Source: Fodinisporobacter ferrooxydans | GTDB lineage: Bacteria; Bacillota; Bacilli; Tumebacillales; MYW30-H2 | NCBI RefSeq assembly: GCF_022818495.1 | Contig: NZ_CP089291.1 | Coordinates: forward strand, 4,233,501 to 4,297,500 | Direction of reading: 5' to 3' | DNA length: 64,000 bases | In this document: positions 38,290 through 52,188 of the stretch, in pieces | Layout: each line of letters opens with the position of its first letter | Numbering within the stretch: the first letter of the stretch is position 1 | Translations under genes and position numbers: made by a program | The notes under the pieces: generated by a model | What the model saw: only the letters and a program-made list of their open reading frames with translations | Told to the model about the DNA's origin: nothing | Database searches by the model: none

Positions 38290-38555
38290 AAATAATGACC
38301 ATCCTTGGCACAAGTCCAGAGATTATTCGCCTAAGCCTAATTATTAAAAAATTGGATCAATTCTCCCAAAAGCACTTATTGGTCCATACCAGACAAAACT
38401 ACACTACATCCTTAAGTGATGTCTTTTTTGACCAATTGCGCATTCGAAAACCAGACTATACGTTCATGTCTGGGTTCCACACGATCGGTAAACAGTTAGG
38501 GCAGATGTTTTCTGAAGTAGAAAGCATTGTGAATTTGCAAATTATTTCGGCGTAG
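38286..38555 (+). pseudogene. Truncated UDP-N-acetylglucosamine 2-epimerase (WecB-type)
   Basis: The ~80 N-terminal residues (MKIMTILGTSPEIIRLSLI, HLLVHTRQNYTTSLSDVFF) match WecB/MnaA, but the family GTRPE and HTGQNYD motifs carry substitutions and the remaining three quarters is absent. It overlaps the preceding gene by 4 nt, so it was the operon's fourth gene. The break coincides with the first copy of a TTTCGGC repeat, the apparent end of a transposon. Confidence 0.75.
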
Positions 38556-45214: not shown

Positions 45215-45245
45215 ATAAAAAATTCCCCGCCGGGAAGCAGGGAAT
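45215..45245 (-). terminator. Intrinsic terminator after gerE
   Basis: ATTCCC and GGGAAT arms close a 12-base loop and are followed by TTTTTTATG in the minus transcript. It lies 13 bp after the gerE stop codon, so it would terminate the reconstituted gene. Confidence 0.75.
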
Positions 45246-45258
45246 GTGTCAAACACCA

Positions 45259-45339
45259 CTATATTTGGATTTCTCCTAAACGGACGAGTTCAACAACCGC
45301 TTGGGAACGGCCTTTGACATTTAGTTTTTTCATCACATT
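45259..45339 (-). CDS. gerE: gerE, 3' segment of a split gene
   Basis: This frame encodes the C-terminal recognition helix and tail of GerE: ..NVMKKLNVKGRSQAVVEL then VRLGEIQI and TAG at 45261-45259. It has no start codon or ribosome site of its own. Its upstream neighbour is not gerE but the element end. The matching 5' part lies 6.6 kb away at 51956-52103, same strand and frame. It is preserved without stops or frameshifts, unlike a decaying pseudogene. Confidence 0.9.
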   Translation of the reverse strand, partial: NVMKKLNVKGRSQAVVELVRLGEIQI

Positions 45340-45360
45340 CGTGATGTGGTTTGAAACACA
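45331..45360 (-). other. Attachment site at the gerE 3' side (attR-like)
   Basis: Read on the minus strand, TTTCAAACCACAT (45356-45344) precedes CACG-AA-TGTGATG. The AA (45339-45338) sits at the centre expected for crossover. The 13-mer is the inverted copy of the one at the other end. The gerE side to the right codes for NVM. Confidence 0.75.
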
Positions 45361-45387
45361 CCGGATGAACGCATCTTAACATTTATT

Positions 45388-45416
45388 TTGCAAATAACAA
45401 TTATCTATGGTATATT
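45388..45416 (+). promoter_or_regulatory. Promoter of the cold-shock gene
   Basis: TTGCAA (45388-45393), 17-bp spacer, TATATT (45411-45416), inside the element ~50 bp from its end. It gives a leader of ~165 nt, the long 5' UTR typical of cold-shock mRNAs. Confidence 0.6.
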
Positions 45417-45587
45417 ATAAAAGCATTTGCAAGAAACGGCACTATGAATACTTTAAATACAGATTATCGATTATCTGCATATCATAACTTCCATGATTAA
45501 AGTTGGTTGATTGTATTATCTATTCATATTCTTTGCTTTGCAAATGAAAAAGCGAATCGACCAATTGGGTCAATGGAGGATATAATA

Positions 45588-45788
45588 ATGCAAAACGGAA
45601 CAGTAAAATGGTTTAATGCAGAAAAAGGGTTTGGCTTTATTCAAGTAGAAGGCGGCGAAGATGTATTTGTACATTTCACCGCAATTCAAACAAATGGTTT
45701 CAAAACCCTTGATGAAGGACAACGTGTAAGCTTTGAAACCGTTCGTGGTAATCGTGGTCCACAAGCTGCAAACGTAACAGTACTCTAA
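45588..45788 (+). CDS. Cold-shock protein, CspA family
   Basis: The 66-residue single-stranded nucleic acid-binding OB-fold protein has RNP1 (KGFGFI) and RNP2 (VFVHF) intact. It starts at ATG 45588 behind TGGAGG. It is the only element gene on the plus strand and has its own promoter and terminator. As cargo its role is unknown. It may be a host-type gene. Confidence 0.93.
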
Positions 45789-45790
45789 AT

Positions 45791-45838
45791 AACATATAAA
45801 AAACACTCTCTAAATTTAGAGAGTGTTTTTTATATGTT
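45791..45838. terminator. Perfect 48-bp palindrome, bidirectional terminator
   Basis: The 24-base arms are exactly complementary, with CACTCTCTAAA and TTTAGAGAGTG at the core flanked by A6 and T6 runs. It terminates csp and, from the other side, the minus-strand element genes. Confidence 0.88.
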
Positions 45839-45858
45839 AAAATTTTGAAAACAAGTGA

Positions 45859-46053
45859 TTATAACGTTTCAACTTCTGCCACCACATGCTGCCCATAATG
45901 TTCCAACTGTAATTCATCTGTCCTTATCCTCAGCTTCGATTCAGAAAATGTCACAATTGTACCAGGAACAACTGCATACGCAGCACCTATCTTGGTTACT
46001 ATGATAGGCTTATCTTTAAACAATTCCAGGCGTCCTATCATTTCAAGTCTCAT
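45859..46053 (-). CDS. Hypothetical protein, 64 aa
   Basis: ATG 46053 has AAGGAG 9 bases upstream. An ATG eight codons earlier lacks a site. The product (MRLEMIGRLELFKDKPIIV..) is beta-rich and ends in HVVAEVETL. No family recognised. Element cargo. Confidence 0.6.
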   Translation of the reverse strand: MRLEMIGRLELFKDKPIIVTKIGAAYAVVPGTIVTFSESKLRIRTDELQLEHYGQHVVAEVETL

Positions 46054-46411
46054 ATTGGATTTCTCCTTCTTTTTCACTACATCTATACGTTTAACAATTT
46101 TGAAACTTTATAGGGGGAATTTTTAAGCGTTGTTAAACATTATACCATTACATACTGAAAAAGATATTTCCAAAGTCCAACCGATCATGTCTTTATTAAG
46201 ACATTTACTTTTTATTGCATTACGAATCTCGGCTATTTATTCTGCTTAGAAAAAGAGGAAAAGGTTTAATTCGTAACCTTTAATGGTTCTCTTTCTGAGA
46301 GGAAGCACGTGTAGGCTAGCTAAAATTTCATGACCGTTTAAAGCGCATATTGGAATTTGCAGCGAATCGAAAACGGATGCAGGCTTATACCTTGATAAAT
46401 ATTGTGTAATT
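46054..46411. other. Intergenic gap inside the element
   Basis: 358 bp with no supported gene. A 72-codon minus frame overlapping the end of the next gene has no ribosome site. Possibly a 3' UTR and promoter for the 64-aa gene. Confidence 0.5.
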
Positions 46412-46915
46412 TTACAAGTTCGATTTTCGCGTTCGAATCCCATAATATCGATAATAGAGTCCAATCCAACAACTTTGAACGATCAAGTAAATGGGGAAAG
46501 AGTAAAAGATTTGGTACCCATTTCTGTAATGGAAAACTCCTGCAATGACAGCCAACCATTCGATTCCGACACTTATCAATGACCAAATGAGTATGTAAAC
46601 AGGTGCACGCGACGGTTTGAGTCGGAGGCGATTATAAATATAAAAGAACAAATAACTGACAGGCCCGTATGACCAGTACGAGACAAAATCCATAATCTGA
46701 AACTTGGATGTATCATTTACATCATAATAATTAACAGGCTGAACACTCAGGGTATGGTCAAAGAAAAAGCCGCTGAAAACACCGCACATGAAAAAAACGA
46801 TAGCAGTCTTTCTCGGAAAACATCTTGGCAAAAAAATCATTCCTGCAATTTCAATGCATAAACCAATAATAATAAACCATTCGTTTGTATTGAAACGATT
46901 ATCATACACGTTCAT
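46412..46915 (-). CDS. CBO0543-like membrane protein (second of pair)
   Basis: The 167-residue protein has four to five hydrophobic helices (EWFIIIGLCIEIAGMIFLP, TAIVFFMCGVFSGFFF, PVYILIWSLISVGIEWLAVI). ATG 46915 overlaps the upstream stop by 4 nt. Similar paired small membrane proteins are common in Bacillales and of unknown function. Confidence 0.72.
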   Translation of the reverse strand: MNVYDNRFNTNEWFIIIGLCIEIAGMIFLPRCFPRKTAIVFFMCGVFSGFFFDHTLSVQPVNYYDVNDTSKFQIMDFVSYWSYGPVSYLFFYIYNRLRLKPSRAPVYILIWSLISVGIEWLAVIAGVFHYRNGYQIFYSFPIYLIVQSCWIGLYYRYYGIRTRKSNL

Positions 46916-47382
46916 TTTACATTCACTTCTTTCGGATCTGCGCGAACAATCCACCACGCCATGAATCTTGAAAACGCCACATAACAAGCAAACATGACCA
47001 ATGTATAGAAAATGTTCCAGTGATGAAGAGTAACAATCCCCAGCCACTCGAATAGTTTTTGCAAAAAAATGAATGACAGAATCATCCCACCAACGATGAC
47101 CCATTTTGCGATCTTCCAAGAATATAACAAAACATTTGACGAAATGATGATTAGAAGAGGATTCATGATGATCCGCAACACCAGATCCGCAAATGACTTC
47201 TCTACACTGTCGCTGACATCGATCCATCTCAGATTCAAGTGAACAATCGTAAATATACTGAGTTCAAAGATCGTATTCACGAAATAAAGAAACACCATAT
47301 CAAGTTCGGATAACTTCTTTGGAATCAGCGAAAGGATGATAATGACTAACCATGTAATGAATACGCTGATCGCAAGCGCCAC
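46912..47382 (-). CDS. CBO0543-like membrane protein (first of pair)
   Basis: The 156-residue protein has four hydrophobic helices (ISVFITWLVIIILSLIP, VIVGGMILSFIFLQKLFEWL, and others). The start is GTG 47382, seven bases after GGAGG. It lies 64 bp after the recombinase, same strand, and is coupled to the next membrane gene. Role unknown. Confidence 0.72.
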   Translation of the reverse strand: MALAISVFITWLVIIILSLIPKKLSELDMVFLYFVNTIFELSIFTIVHLNLRWIDVSDSVEKSFADLVLRIIMNPLLIIISSNVLLYSWKIAKWVIVGGMILSFIFLQKLFEWLGIVTLHHWNIFYTLVMFACYVAFSRFMAWWIVRADPKEVNVK

Positions 47383-47446
47383 TGTCTTCCCTCCTAAACT
47401 TTAACGCCCGAAGGTCAGATTTCAGTATCGACGAAATACAGCGTTT

Positions 47447-49114
47447 TTATCCGGGTATCATTGGCGCATTGGGATGAGCGAATTGATTTCCTTCTCTGGC
47501 TTTTTGAAACGTGCCGTCCTCCTGCAGATGAATATCAAAAGTTGTTACAACATCGATTTTGCCGTTTTTATCAACTCGTATACTTGCAATCAACTTTTTT
47601 AAAGTAAAATGTAGTTCATCAAAATTCTCGCAATCCAAATCCAGCAACTCTTCCAATGAATCTTTCACATCTTCATATAACAGAGTCGAATCTTCTTTCT
47701 TTTGCAGTTTCCGCTGCAAATTTGCAAGCCGGTTCTCGAACGACTGGATTTCTTGTTCGAACATGATCTTTTCGTACTCGTACTGCTCGTTGTCTTTGAT
47801 TTTTCCGCTAAGTTTTTCTTTCCGCAATTCAAACAGGAATTTGCGATTATTTTCCATATGTCTTTCTAATTTCTTGATTTCCATCTCAATATCTGTCGTT
47901 TGAATTTGAATCATATCTTTAAAACGTTCCAGCAATTGACCGGCTGATGTGATGGTTCGAAGACAATATGACAACTCTTTCAGCAAATCATCACGAAACG
48001 GGTAATACGGCAGCCAAAAATTGTTCCCGCAACCGGCGTCACCCTGCCGTCTTCGCTTGGAGCAAACGAGATAGCGATATTCATGACCGTCTTTGGAAAT
48101 TTTCCCGTTCTTGCTTTTCATACTGACCATGGACGATCCACAGTGATGACACGTAATCATTCCAGCAAACACATTCACGCGGTTGCGGATCCCGCCCCGT
48201 TTGCCGCCGCCGCGTTCCAAACGCAATTGTTGCGCTTTTTGGAACGTTTCTTCATCAATGATGGCCGGATGTGTTTGTGGCTGATGCGCTCTTTGCCATT
48301 CGGACGAATCTTTTTGAACCAGTTTCTTTCTTCGTTCTGTTGTGTCTTGAAAATTCGTATACACCTTTATCAGCTCATGTTTTCCAAACGTATTTCTGCC
48401 GACGTACGCTTCGTTTTGCAAAATCCTCTGGATACTCGTTATGCCCCATTTCCCGCCCTTCGGCGCCGGGATTTGTTGTTCGTTCAAATACTCGACAATC
48501 GCCTTTTCACCCATTTTATTCGCAATGTAAAGCTGGAAAATTTTTTGCACGATATGTTTGGTTTCTTCGTCAGGCTCAAGTGTTTTACGGTCATTCCGCA
48601 TGATTTTTTTATAACCGAAAGGCGCCAATCGCCCCGTAAAATTTCCCTTCAATGCAGATTGCCGTTTCCCGCGTTTGGAACTGTAACTGATTTGTTCACT
48701 AAGCTTTTGATTCACAGCAGAGATAATCGTAAATTTCAGTTCATCTTTGTCAACACCAGAGTCGTAACCTTCGTCAATCGAAATCAAACGAATTCCAAGC
48801 GCATCCACGAGCTTGCGTTTTAAGTCAAGAGCATCTCCTGTATCACGGGCAAAACGGGAAAGGGAAGCAAAAATCACAATGTCAAACGCCCTTTTGCTCG
48901 CATCTTTCATCAATTGTTGAATAGCCGGGCGGTCGATAATTGTGGTTCCTGTATCGCGGTCTTCGTAGATCCGCTCTTCTTTGACGTCTAATTCCAATTG
49001 CTTTGCTTTATCTTTGCAAACACCGATTTGGTGTTCGGGACTGTCTTTTTGACTTGATTTTGTCGTGGAGACACGGACGTAGATAGCAGCGCGTTTGTCC
49101 TCATGAAATTTCAT
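47447..49114 (-). CDS. Large serine recombinase of the gerE element
   Basis: Site-specific DNA recombinase (SpoIVCA/SprA type), 555 aa. The resolvase catalytic domain starts AAIYVRVSTTKSSQ, with the nucleophilic serine at residue ~16, and has SLSRFARD with the conserved arginines. A recombinase domain follows (FGYKKIMRNDR, SIQRILQNEAYVGRN), then a zinc ribbon (CHHCGSSM and a later C..C pair) and a long coiled coil (~400-490). All catalytic elements are present with no frameshift. It most likely excises the element that splits gerE. Confidence 0.93.
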   Translation of the reverse strand: MKFHEDKRAAIYVRVSTTKSSQKDSPEHQIGVCKDKAKQLELDVKEERIYEDRDTGTTIIDRPAIQQLMKDASKRAFDIVIFASLSRFARDTGDALDLKRKLVDALGIRLISIDEGYDSGVDKDELKFTIISAVNQKLSEQISYSSKRGKRQSALKGNFTGRLAPFGYKKIMRNDRKTLEPDEETKHIVQKIFQLYIANKMGEKAIVEYLNEQQIPAPKGGKWGITSIQRILQNEAYVGRNTFGKHELIKVYTNFQDTTERRKKLVQKDSSEWQRAHQPQTHPAIIDEETFQKAQQLRLERGGGKRGGIRNRVNVFAGMITCHHCGSSMVSMKSKNGKISKDGHEYRYLVCSKRRRQGDAGCGNNFWLPYYPFRDDLLKELSYCLRTITSAGQLLERFKDMIQIQTTDIEMEIKKLERHMENNRKFLFELRKEKLSGKIKDNEQYEYEKIMFEQEIQSFENRLANLQRKLQKKEDSTLLYEDVKDSLEELLDLDCENFDELHFTLKKLIASIRVDKNGKIDVVTTFDIHLQEDGTFQKAREGNQFAHPNAPMIPG

Positions 49115-49320
49115 CGTTCATCCGCTATCGTACGGTTACCCGAATGAAATGTTTCTTTGCTGTCCATGTCTGTTGTGCTTGGAAAGCGTACATTCGAATG
49201 CAAACAATCTACATGTTTTTGAATCACATGTTTCGCTAAATCATAAATCATACTCTGCAACTGTTCTTTGCCGAAGTGCAAATGGATGGTATATGGTCTT
49301 TCCTCCTGTTTCCTACGCAT
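49111..49320 (-). CDS. Small protein coupled to the recombinase, 69 aa
   Basis: ATG 49320 lies 6 bases after GAGGG. The stop overlaps the recombinase start by 4 nt (ATGA). The product begins MRRKQEERPYTIHLHFGKEQ and is charged. No family recognised. By position it could be a directionality or accessory factor for the recombinase, but this is only a guess from coupling. Confidence 0.62.
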   Translation of the reverse strand: MRRKQEERPYTIHLHFGKEQLQSMIYDLAKHVIQKHVDCLHSNVRFPSTTDMDSKETFHSGNRTIADER

Positions 49321-49337
49321 ATGCATCCCTCACTCGT

Positions 49338-49388
49338 ATGTTGTCATTGTTATGTGTATGGCGCCTGCGACTTGTACAATGACAACAT
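49338..49388 (-). promoter_or_regulatory. Inverted repeat and candidate sigma-E promoter of the recombinase operon
   Basis: A perfect 13-bp inverted repeat (ATGTTGTCATTGT 49338-49350; ACAATGACAACAT 49376-49388) surrounds a minus-strand -35-like GTCATTGT, 15 bp, and CATACACA (49360-49353; 7 of 8 to CATACANT). The arms could be operator half-sites. It lies directly upstream of the 69-aa gene. Confidence 0.45.
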
Positions 49389-49534
49389 GCGGCGGGAAAA
49401 TGTACGGACAGCGTCAATTAAAAAGACTGTATAGAAAAGAATTCTACACAGTCCGGAAAATTTGCTTCATAAGAAGCTTCTTCTAGTTTGCCGGCAATTT
49501 TGCGGCGGTTTTCCCTAGATTCATAGATTTACGA

Positions 49535-49780
49535 TTACAGACATTTAACCGTAAGCCTTTCTCTATGACTTAATACGACCGTTCGAATGATGCGGCGAAC
49601 CGGACCACATGATACGAAGACCCGTCTGCCATTGCAAATGACAAGAATGGCCTGGCCGGGCTTTAAAGAGATCGTGCGAAACCGAATGGGCACAAGTACT
49701 GGCGGGCATACCAAACGTACGGATTGGCCTCTCGTCACAAACAAAGTTGCAATCGGTCTTGTAAAACTATAAGTTACCAT
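49535..49780 (-). CDS. Hypothetical protein, 81 aa
   Basis: ATG 49780 is preceded by AGGAGGGAGCAAA. The product (MVTYSFTRPIATLFVTRGQS..) is basic and beta-rich with three cysteines. No family recognised. Lies between recQ and the recombinase operon in the element. Confidence 0.62.
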   Translation of the reverse strand: MVTYSFTRPIATLFVTRGQSVRLVCPPVLVPIRFRTISLKPGQAILVICNGRRVFVSCGPVRRIIRTVVLSHRERLTVKCL

Positions 49781-49862
49781 TTTGCTCCCTCCTCTCACTA
49801 TCAATAAATGAGAGGAGAGGAAAATTTGCAGCGGCGCTTGATCAATGAAACTCAAAATATGC

Positions 49863-51659
49863 TTATCGTACGGGAGAAACGAAACTTTTTTGCAGCACAT
49901 GCTGCCGCAACAGATCCAAAAAGGGCTGCCCATATTTTTGCAGTTTTGCTTCCCCAACACCTTTGATTGCAAGCAGGGACGTCTCATCACTCGGGATGTA
50001 CTGCGCCATTTCCCGCAGCGTACTATCGGAAAAAATGATATACGGCGGCACCCCGTCCCGATCAGCCAGCTCTTTGCGCAACTGCCGAAGCTGTTCAAAC
50101 AGATGATTGCCGGCTTGTGCGGTCTGCTTCTTGCTGCGAACTTTCCGCGCGACCTGCGTCATCCCTTTCAGCACATCGACAGCTTTGGGCTTCAGCCTGA
50201 CAACGGGATATTGACCGCCACTCAGATCGAGATACCCTTCCGCAATCAATAAGTTGATCAAATCGGCTACCGCTTTTTCCGTATATTCCTGCATCACACC
50301 GTATGTGGATAGGCGGTCAAAACCAAATTCTGCAATCCGCTTATTTTTTGACCCCTTTAATACCTGGGCAATCAGTGTAATTCCAAAGCGTTCATTCATG
50401 CGCCGGATGCAGGAAAAGATTTTTTGCGCCTCGATCGTAATGTCTGTCAGATCGTACTCTTGATTGCAGTTGCCGCAATTTCCGCAGGACGGCAAATGAT
50501 CCTGTTCATCAAAATAATTCAGGATATATGCACGCAAACATTCCTGCGTGTGACAATAGTCCACCATCGATTGCAATTTTTTGTATTCATGCGCCTTACG
50601 GTCAGAAGCGGAAACCGACTGTTCAATCAAAAATTTTTGTGTTTGGATGTCTTGCGGACTGAATAACAGCACACATTCGGCAGGCTCGCCGTCTCGTCCG
50701 GCCCGGCCTGCCTCCTGATAATAGGCTTCCATATTTTTGGGCATGTTGTAATGAATGACATACCGGACATTGGATTTGTCAATTCCCATTCCGAACGCGT
50801 TTGTCGCTACCATGACGCGCATATCGTCGTATAAGAAAGCATCCTGGTTATGCTTGCGCTCTTCATCACCTAAACCTGCATGATATTTGGCTGCTGCTAT
50901 TCCGTTGTCACAAAGCAGTTTGCAGAGATCTTCCACATCTTTGCGGGTAGAAGCGTAAATGATGCCGGCCTGCTCGTTGTTATCCTTGACATACCGAAGC
51001 AGAAAATCTTTCTTATTGACACCGCGCAGCACCGAAAAGGACAGGTTTTCACGATTGAAGCCAGTCATGTATAATTCAGCGTTCTGAAGTGACAGCAGCC
51101 GCAAAATATCCTGCGTGACTCCACTCGTCGCAGTCGCTGTAAATGCTGCAACAGCCGGCCTAGGATTGATGCGTTCGACAAAGGAAGCGATCGACAAATA
51201 GCTTGTCCGGAAATCATTCCCCCATTGGGAAACGCAATGTGCTTCATCGACAGCCACAAGCGGGATATTGAAAGCAGAAAGGAACGACTGAAATTGTTCC
51301 GACTCCAGTCGTTCCGGAGCGATGTAGAGAAGTTTGTACTCTCCTCTAGCCGCACTTTGCATGCGCTGTTCCGTTTCCGTCTGTGTCAAGGAACTGTTTA
51401 TATAAGCTGCCGGAATTCCCAGACCTGCGAGCGCATCGACCTGATCTTTCATCAGCGAAATCAGCGGCGATATCACAATCGTCGTGCCTGGAAACACAAG
51501 TGCCGGAATCTGATAACAAATCGACTTGCCGCCACCTGTAGGCATGATCCCAAGAGTATCACGTTTCTGCAAAATGCTGTTGATAATCTTCTCCTGGCCC
51601 TCCCGGAATGTGGAATAGCCATAAACTTTGCGAAGGATTTCTTGCGCAGCGTTCAGCAT
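49863..51659 (-). CDS. recQ: ATP-dependent DNA helicase RecQ
   Basis: 3'-5' DNA helicase. Walker A is GIMPTGGGKSICYQIPAL, the box is DEAHCVSQWGNDFR, motif VI QEAGRAGRDGEPAEC. The RQC zinc cysteines are in CLRAYILNYF and CGNCGNC, and the HRDC domain ends the protein (LLAIKGVGEAKLQKYG). ATG 51659 is 6 bases after GAGG. The ATG just before it is possible. Length is 598 aa. It lies wholly inside the gerE element. Confidence 0.93.
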   Translation of the reverse strand: MLNAAQEILRKVYGYSTFREGQEKIINSILQKRDTLGIMPTGGGKSICYQIPALVFPGTTIVISPLISLMKDQVDALAGLGIPAAYINSSLTQTETEQRMQSAARGEYKLLYIAPERLESEQFQSFLSAFNIPLVAVDEAHCVSQWGNDFRTSYLSIASFVERINPRPAVAAFTATATSGVTQDILRLLSLQNAELYMTGFNRENLSFSVLRGVNKKDFLLRYVKDNNEQAGIIYASTRKDVEDLCKLLCDNGIAAAKYHAGLGDEERKHNQDAFLYDDMRVMVATNAFGMGIDKSNVRYVIHYNMPKNMEAYYQEAGRAGRDGEPAECVLLFSPQDIQTQKFLIEQSVSASDRKAHEYKKLQSMVDYCHTQECLRAYILNYFDEQDHLPSCGNCGNCNQEYDLTDITIEAQKIFSCIRRMNERFGITLIAQVLKGSKNKRIAEFGFDRLSTYGVMQEYTEKAVADLINLLIAEGYLDLSGGQYPVVRLKPKAVDVLKGMTQVARKVRSKKQTAQAGNHLFEQLRQLRKELADRDGVPPYIIFSDSTLREMAQYIPSDETSLLAIKGVGEAKLQKYGQPFLDLLRQHVLQKSFVSPVR

Positions 51660-51762
51660 CATGCACCTCATTCTAATGCGTATTTGCAAGTACGGCAGGA
51701 AAGCCGTTGTTACATGTATCTGCTATGATAGATTTGAAAAACTTGAAGGAATGGATGTTTCC

Positions 51763-51771
51763 ATTATATCA
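51763..51771 (-). promoter_or_regulatory. Extended -10 promoter of recQ
   Basis: Minus strand TGATATAAT, a perfect -10 with the TG extension, ~100 bp upstream of recQ. No good -35 is seen 17 bp upstream. Confidence 0.45.
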
Positions 51772-51835
51772 TATTGCATTTTCGAATCGTTTTCTCATGC
51801 CATTTGACTGTAAACGCAAAGATTCTATCTCCAAA

Positions 51836-51876
51836 AAGAAAAACACCCCCGATCATCCAAAACGACAATCGGAGGT
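51836..51876 (-). terminator. Terminator just inside the element after the gerE 5' half
   Basis: ACC-CCGAT and ATCGG-GGT arms (one mismatch) are followed by GTTTTTCTTTTT in the minus transcript. It lies ~80 bp inside the element, so transcripts from the gerE promoter would stop here before recQ unless the element is excised. Confidence 0.7.
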
Positions 51877-51908
51877 ATTTATAATCATCCACCGGAAACC
51901 CCGCTATA

Positions 51909-52103
51909 TCAAGATTCCTTTGCTTTAATTTTCTGTATTTCAAACCACATTGCATTACTGATGTGATTCCGTACCGTTTTTTCGCTGATGAATAACTGTT
52001 CAGCTATATCTCTAGTGGTTTTATCTTGGACGAGAAGTTCAAACACTTCTCGTTCCCGGTTGGTGAGCAGGGATTTGTGCCGCATGTCTTTACCCGCTGT
52101 CAC
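51909..52103 (-). CDS. gerE: gerE, 5' segment of a split gene (runs into element)
   Basis: Start GTG 52103 is 9 bases after AAGGAGG. The first ~50 codons encode the GerE LuxR-type HTH: LLTNREREVFELLVQDKTT, IAEQLFISEKTVRNHISNA. Then the frame enters the element and ends MWFEIQKIKAKES. B. subtilis GerE is 74 residues. Joining at the AAT codon to 45338-45259 gives a complete 75-residue protein. GerE is the last mother-cell regulator of coat genes, made under sigma-K. The truncated product lacks the C-terminal helix and should not work. Confidence 0.92.
   Translation of the reverse strand: MTAGKDMRHKSLLTNREREVFELLVQDKTTRDIAEQLFISEKTVRNHISNAMWFEIQKIKAKES
51938..51960 (-). other. Attachment site at the gerE 5' side (attL-like)
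   Basis: Minus strand: gerE sequence CACATCAGT-AA, then TGCA and the 13-mer ATGTGGTTTGAAA (51950-51938). The presumed crossover AA is 51956-51955. The 13-mer is inverted relative to the other end, as expected for the two arms of an attP. Confidence 0.75.
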
Positions 52104-52159: not shown

Positions 52160-52188
52160 TATAGTATGACCGCAATGGATAGGATGTG
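52160..52188 (-). promoter_or_regulatory. Sigma-K-type promoter of gerE
   Basis: Minus strand CACA, 16-bp spacer, CATACTATA (52168-52160). The latter matches the sigma-K -10 consensus CATA-N3-TA exactly, and the -35 carries the AC core. About 55 bp upstream of the GTG start. gerE is sigma-K-dependent in B. subtilis, and a sigma-E reading is also possible. Confidence 0.6.

Follow-up and report, generated by a model that had tools for sequence, protein, structure and literature searches.

A 6.6-kb serine-recombinase element splits gerE in Fodinisporobacter ferrooxydans and has relatives at the same site in other Bacilli

Serine recombinases are known to rejoin sporulation genes that have been split by inserted DNA. 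The closest described case is gin, an element of 28.6 kb with 31 genes in gerE of Bacillus cereus ATCC10987, whose exchange takes place within CATCTCAAA over the codons Ile47-Ser48-Asn49, with cleavage predicted at the final AA (PMC5595907, Abe et al. 2017). Its excision in sporulation was shown by polymerase chain reaction, Southern blot and in vitro assays, needs GirC and the 42-residue GirX, and proceeds from T4 of sporulation without being induced by mitomycin C; the same paper notes that gerE of B. glycinifermentans holds a prophage (PMC5595907). In B. subtilis, the defective prophage skin lies in sigK, and skr, the gene for its recombination directionality factor (RDF), sits 5' of the recombinase gene spoIVCA and overlaps it (PMC6957869). 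SPbeta, a 134-kb active prophage in spsM, relies on SprA and SprB (PMC4191935; PDB 9dxh, 9dxd). In B. amyloliquefaciens, spsM carries small inserts of 4-20 kb (PMC6957869), so small remnants as such are already known. Here, we describe an element that splits gerE in Fodinisporobacter ferrooxydans, within a stretch of 64,000 nucleotides (the window: positions 4,233,501 to 4,297,500 of contig NZ_CP089291.1, assembly GCF_022818495.1). It is very probably a gerE-intervening element of the gin type, excised in sporulating mother cells by its large serine recombinase (LSR) together with a small protein.

The initial annotation had proposed a gerE split by an element with a complete LSR, and this is borne out. 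The two parts of gerE lie on the same (-) strand, 6,617 bp apart, and the insertion falls within the Ile47-Ser48-Asn49 codons with the crossover at AA, as is characteristic of gin-type elements. Joined at the common AAT codon, as predicted, the halves translate in frame as a GerE of 75 residues; the unexcised 5' part encodes a 64-residue product in which 50 GerE residues are followed by 14 derived from the element. The recombinase is open over 555 aa and carries Resolvase, Recombinase and zinc-ribbon domains. A second full-length gerE is absent from the genome, a single contig of 4.86 Mb, where a gerE search returned, besides the two halves, seven other matches, all LuxR-type domains of 33-48% identity. 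Removal of the element leaves a complete in-frame GerE and the genome holds no other, a further mark of gin-type elements.

In each of the 13 order mates searched, gerE is uninterrupted and shares 90-94% identity with the composite. The intact alleles called for by the initial annotation therefore exist in the order, but they are known only from other families because the searched genomes included none of the same family. Over the 25 codons that follow the junction, 15 silent and no replacement changes separate the gene from three relatives (L009, L010 and L018), and 17 silent and no replacement changes from a fourth (L017); the remaining 24 of 28 relatives show 9-19 silent and 1-5 replacement changes. 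This codon conservation fits a working gene. A pattern resembling what we take to be the sigma-K consensus starts 84 bases 5' of the gerE start codon and is one of five such matches in the window, counting both strands.

Both ends of the element carry the identical 13-bp arm TTTCAAACCACAT in opposite orientation, and an excised circle would therefore hold a palindrome centred on AA. The constancy of the AA is no evidence, being within a conserved Asn codon; the palindrome centred on it is. The deduced arms of the phage-type attachment (att) site, attP, agree at 17 of 25 positions, a level reached by none of 20,000 shuffles. An attP consensus was drawn from 47 attR and 34 attL rows, in which several species are present twice and the window supplies one row (gapped rows and one short row were skipped, and the uninterrupted locus L122 was not counted). 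Its half-sites reach 18/18 and 16/18 precisely where the element meets gerE, against a maximum of 13/18 in the rest of the 64 kb.

As far as gin is described (PMC5595907), the two elements share the gene, the Ile-Ser-Asn codons, the predicted AA crossover and the in-frame composite GerE, as well as the lack of phage-related genes and the pairing of a serine recombinase with a small extra factor, which in the window is a candidate. In contrast to the 28.6 kb, three recombinase genes and recJ of gin, the window element has 6.6 kb, recQ and csp; with one recombinase gene, it falls outside gin in the narrow sense, which is defined by girA, girB and girC. The initial annotation had mentioned gerE-interrupting elements from other Bacillales, and gin is such an element. 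With skin, the likeness is one of working and gene order: a serine recombinase (SpoIVCA) with a small overlapping 5' RDF gene (for Skr) rejoins a split mother-cell regulator gene, but the gene and the att site are different and skin is a defective prophage (PMC6957869). There is no insertion in sigK in F. ferrooxydans, whose genome has a full-length sigK match above cut-off elsewhere. About 7 kb from this intact sigK lies a partial copy of the sigK 3' region (L159, G000:C1:2758359-2758520, - strand), which begins at ENEIL and has an internal gap; a former sigK-intervening element may have left it behind. SPbeta likewise uses a serine recombinase to restore a sporulation gene, and the window LSR matches SPbeta YokA, of related fold, at E 2.2e-20 in a search of solved structures; unlike the window element, SPbeta is an active prophage of 134 kb in spsM (PMC4191935), and the corresponding search with the small open reading frame (ORF) of the window found no sequence relation to its RDF.

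Related elements are found in several genera. An alignment of three LSRs (from the window, genome G041 and phage Xenia) was searched against one genome per species, and this recombinase-only search returned 21 loci, 19 with a gerE half and seven with both halves; L084 and L085 had none. The loci with a gerE half belong to Paenibacillus, Aneurinibacillus, Cohnella, Peribacillus, Metabacillus and Mesobacillus, the last three genera showing only the 3' half within the examined stretch. Insert sizes were measurable within 20-kb stretches, longer inserts falling outside, and those with both halves in one stretch measure 2,580 bp (P. terrigena), 2,874 bp (P. nasutitermitis), 3,166 bp (P. phyllosphaerae), 3,348 bp (P. 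cisolokensis), 4,431 bp (P. ginsengihumi), 5,732 bp (G269) and 6,617 bp (window), with others from 8,262 to 18,713 bp. The initial annotation had considered its small version distinct. This holds for the recQ and csp cargo only; small size alone does not set the insert apart, because six other gerE elements of 2.6-5.7 kb, in Paenibacillaceae, carry related LSRs.

In an LSR tree of 65 rows (10 duplicates dropped and the frame-spread P. cisolokensis LSR left out), the window LSR pairs with the LSR of Aneurinibacillus terranovensis as its sister (support 100/97; 75-76% identity), and the pair sits in a Paenibacillus-rich group. Given this sister and 13 order mates without the insertion, horizontal arrival is the simplest reading, and the tree suggests that the window element was acquired in this way. 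The small gerE elements are scattered over separate branches of the tree, which suggests repeated reduction. Several loci have unusual structures. One gerE insert holds two LSR copies with identical match scores (L094, 1509-3074 and 4375-5940), and in the Mesobacillus and Metabacillus loci L078 and L079 a second, partial LSR precedes the full one. Two successive gerE 3' copies, each with an att arm, occur 1.0-1.6 kb apart in L082 (11581 and 13212) and L107 (14552 and 15591), as either stacked elements or an element carrying its own 3' end.

On this evidence, elements that split gerE are common across spore-forming Bacilli. In a Paenibacillaceae sample, 276 of 295 genomes match gerE at E 1e-16 or better. 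Thirty-four genomes with a weak best match, selected by eye, were searched again, and in 33 of them (33 of 295) the match stops at the insertion codons or a few codons past them, the exception being G116. In the stretches downstream of these 33 matches, an LSR related to that of the window is present in 19 and a same-strand 3' half in 15; 3'-half-like matches lie farther away or on another contig in G197, G214, G290 and G321. Across the class, 268 of 398 sampled genomes match gerE at 1e-15, and the match ends near the insertion codons in 30 of 32 re-searched weak genomes (not in G027 and G054). Adding G000 (F. ferrooxydans), G030, G032, G041, G087, G111, G181 and G197 brings the class total to 38 of 268 genomes in which gerE stops at this site, a rate that is an estimate because the denominator may include other LuxR-type matches and takes the divergent matches of family f7 as a group. 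Some of these genomes may carry other recombinases, and the LSR seen in G032 falls outside the window LSR clade in the tree. In G116, gerE is retained only from about codon 22 on (L122, near 11038) and is preceded by a frame like an LSR C-terminus (LSR match 22%), perhaps from a different recombinase that targets gerE at a second position. One contig (L043, end of G030:C1) terminates exactly at the gerE crossover (AATG), which might reflect coexisting integrated and excised forms in the assembly or have other causes. No gerE match at E 1e-16 was obtained in 16 genomes of the Paenibacillaceae genus g42, where the gene is either lost or strongly diverged.

A small gene accompanies the recombinase. 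Directly 5' of the LSR, a related ORF of 41-100 codons is present in 23 of 24 loci (all but L080); Mesobacillus has members of 41 and 42 aa. A profile built from 23 sequences without that of the window picks out the window ORF from 1,471 frames, with E 4.6e-8 against 0.51 for the next frame; the former value contains some selection because the profile sequences were chosen by eye. As it is kept 5' of the LSR, like skr in skin, the small gene is proposed as a candidate RDF. Promoters were scored against what is presumably the sigma-E consensus. Within 20-52 bases 5' of the small gene, a sigma-E-like pair scoring at least 15 occurs in 12 of 24 regions, compared with 20 of 395 regions in front of other ORFs and 64 of 2,400 places picked at random; the p of 5e-10 is too good because a first scan had preceded the choice of range. 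When position was left unlimited, all 24 regions together scored above 100 of 100 shuffle means.

The element could also be an ordinary mobile element with an attachment site in gerE, excising at random or under stress and rejoining the gene as a by-product, with no developmental control. LSRs of the same clade are indeed carried by phages: the integrases of P. larvae phages, including Xenia, are 47.7% identical to the window LSR over 94%, and the attP palindrome of Xenia starts 5 bases 3' of its integrase gene, with the AA at 38424-38425. Phage Xeni_IDv2 (about 41 kb) has been reported integrated in P. larvae gerE with nine bases duplicated, its genome broken at base 38,418 (PMC12453123); the agreement in position is suggestive only, because the two phages are likened by name and not by sequence comparison. 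Two IMG/VR contigs (L126 and L132) join the same att arm to gerE-like sequence, and the LSR nearest to that of the window belongs to another lineage. Xeni_IDv2 resembles the window element in its integration in gerE, and Xenia in its related integrase and the same attP palindrome, but Xeni_IDv2 is a whole phage, and the available part of its description (PMC12453123) does not mention excision in sporulation. In contrast, searches of Pfam, PHROGs and NCBIfam with eight ORFs of the window element revealed no gene for phage structure or conjugation, the gin precedent is specific to sporulation and insensitive to mitomycin C (PMC5595907), and half of the regions have the sigma-E-like promoter before the small gene. 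Excision without developmental control is therefore improbable.

Slightly less probable still is a stranded insertion, in which excision has been lost and this strain is left with a permanently broken gerE. Decay does occur among gerE elements, as the P. cisolokensis LSR extends across several frames, and the single-contig genome shows no excised form; in the window, however, the LSR and the small gene, like the two att sites and the two parts of gerE, are open and conserved. The P. cisolokensis locus itself (L087, 6447-8015, the same as L110) may reflect decay or a sequencing fault. Chance or misassembly is ruled out because the att arms are consistent with the LSR and the reading frames, and the arrangement recurs in many relatives.

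Sporulation-controlled reconstitution of gerE, as put forward in the initial annotation, is thus the best reading of the locus, with gin as precedent at the same codons and the same predicted AA (PMC5595907). It is favoured because the composite is in frame with no other gerE in the genome, a gerE half accompanies 19 of 21 LSR loci, the attP palindrome marks both ends, the small gene and the sigma-E-like promoter recur, and the gerE 3' part is free of replacements against four relatives. Some points weigh against it. The split, the att sites, the common site and recombinase clade and the conserved small gene are directly observed; excision in F. ferrooxydans is what we infer from them, together with when it takes place, what the small protein does and which sigma factors are involved. 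Conservation of the gerE 3' part covers the time before insertion too. Half of the regions (12 of 24) have no sigma-E-like promoter scoring at least 15, the position range was chosen after an unrestricted scan, and the window promoter alone is not significant in the position-unlimited scan (p 0.12). The correspondence of the window LSR and small ORF to GirC and GirX is putative, and pairwise BLAST of the small ORF against its G041 counterpart found nothing. Its AlphaFold model is uninformative (one helix, residues 21-42; mean predicted local distance difference test score 71.0, predicted template modelling score 0.34). Solved structures include no credible relative (best E 0.18).

Under gin-type control, a circular element with a palindromic attP would once have been inserted by its serine recombinase at the Ile-Ser-Asn codons of gerE. 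During growth, gerE would stay split and only the N-terminal fragment could be made. During sporulation, mother-cell transcription from the sigma-E-like promoter at 49383-49353 would read a single operon encoding the small protein and the LSR, and together these two would recombine attL with attR at the AA dinucleotide, releasing a 6.6-kb circle. The rebuilt gerE would then be read from the sigma-K-like promoter, and the forespore would retain the element. The features of the locus are collected in Table 1; the hairpin scan found 13 terminator-like hairpins in the region against 7.1 expected in shuffles.

Table 1. Features of the split gerE and its element, in window coordinates
Feature	Position	Strand	Basis
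gerE 5' part, GTG start at 52103, 50 codons to the Asn codon with AA at 51956-51955	51955..52103	-	own-genome search, composite translation, uninterrupted orthologues
gerE 3' part, AA at 45339-45338 to the stop codon ending at 45259	45259..45339	-	own-genome search, translation, codon comparison with four relatives
attR, gerE/element junction, AA 51956-51955, element arm ATGTGGTTTGAAA	51925..51985	-	att table, half-site scan
attL, element/gerE junction, AA 45339-45338, element arm TTTCAAACCACAT	45310..45370	-	att table, half-site scan
LSR, 555 aa	47447..49114	-	domain searches, tree, structure-database match
Small ORF 5' of and overlapping the LSR gene, candidate RDF	49111..49326	-	profile
Sigma-E-like promoter GTCATTGT-15-CATACACA, score 16	49353..49383	-	pattern scan, presumed consensus
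Operator-like inverted repeat, 16-nt arms, 94%, framing the sigma-E-like promoter	49335..49391	.	repeat search
Terminator-like hairpin parting the recQ side from the recombinase operon	49424..49454	-	hairpin scan
Sigma-K-like promoter of gerE, AC-N17-CATACTATA	52160..52187	-	pattern match, presumed consensus
Terminator-like hairpin just within the element, 3' of the truncated gerE frame	51841..51880	-	hairpin scan
Terminator-like hairpin 3' of the gerE 3' part	45222..45245	-	hairpin scan
recQ (cargo)	49863..51662	-	family searches, own-genome search
Small ORF, no family match	49535..49783	-	family searches
Putative membrane protein, no family match	46912..47382	-	family searches
CBO0543-like membrane protein, 33.4 bits, below the family cut-off of 35	46412..46915	-	family search
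Small ORF, no family match	45859..46077	-	family searches
Cold-shock protein gene (csp)	45588..45788	+	family searches

The cargo appears peculiar to this element: its six cargo proteins, RecQ included, have no match in the other gerE-element stretches compared, and a part for RecQ or other cargo in the mechanism is accordingly unsupported. The recQ of the element is the only match over the full RecQ length in its own genome. In seven of the 13 order mates, a recQ 61-63% identical to it lies at other places. No plasmid record covers 80% of the element.

Among the matches listed from the open-licence literature, a body that leaves preprints and most subscription papers outside, gerE insertions appear only in PMC5595907, in PMC10747680 and PMC6957869, which cite it, and in PMC12453123; in the parts of these sources available, neither a wide distribution nor minimal gerE elements are stated. 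On this evidence, the kind of element is already known from gin, and its breadth and the minimal cassettes are new. Gene reconstitution at gerE, so far published for a few cases, is thereby extended to many Bacilli; genome annotation would otherwise record such split genes as missing or broken. The small natural cassettes bring recombinase, candidate directionality factor, promoter and att sites together within 2.6-6.6 kb, and the conserved small gene and common attP make the fixation of phage-borne integrase modules as developmental switches directly testable. More broadly, and with about an even chance of being right, gerE may be a standing DNA-level intron site of Bacilli, split in roughly 1 in 7-8 gerE-bearing species, where phages of one att specificity keep arriving and inserts have been pared independently in several lineages to minimal cassettes (2.6-6.6 kb: a small RDF, a recombinase and two att sites) under mother-cell control as a developmental switch; the element of F. 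ferrooxydans, with the only full-length recQ of the cell, would be one of them.

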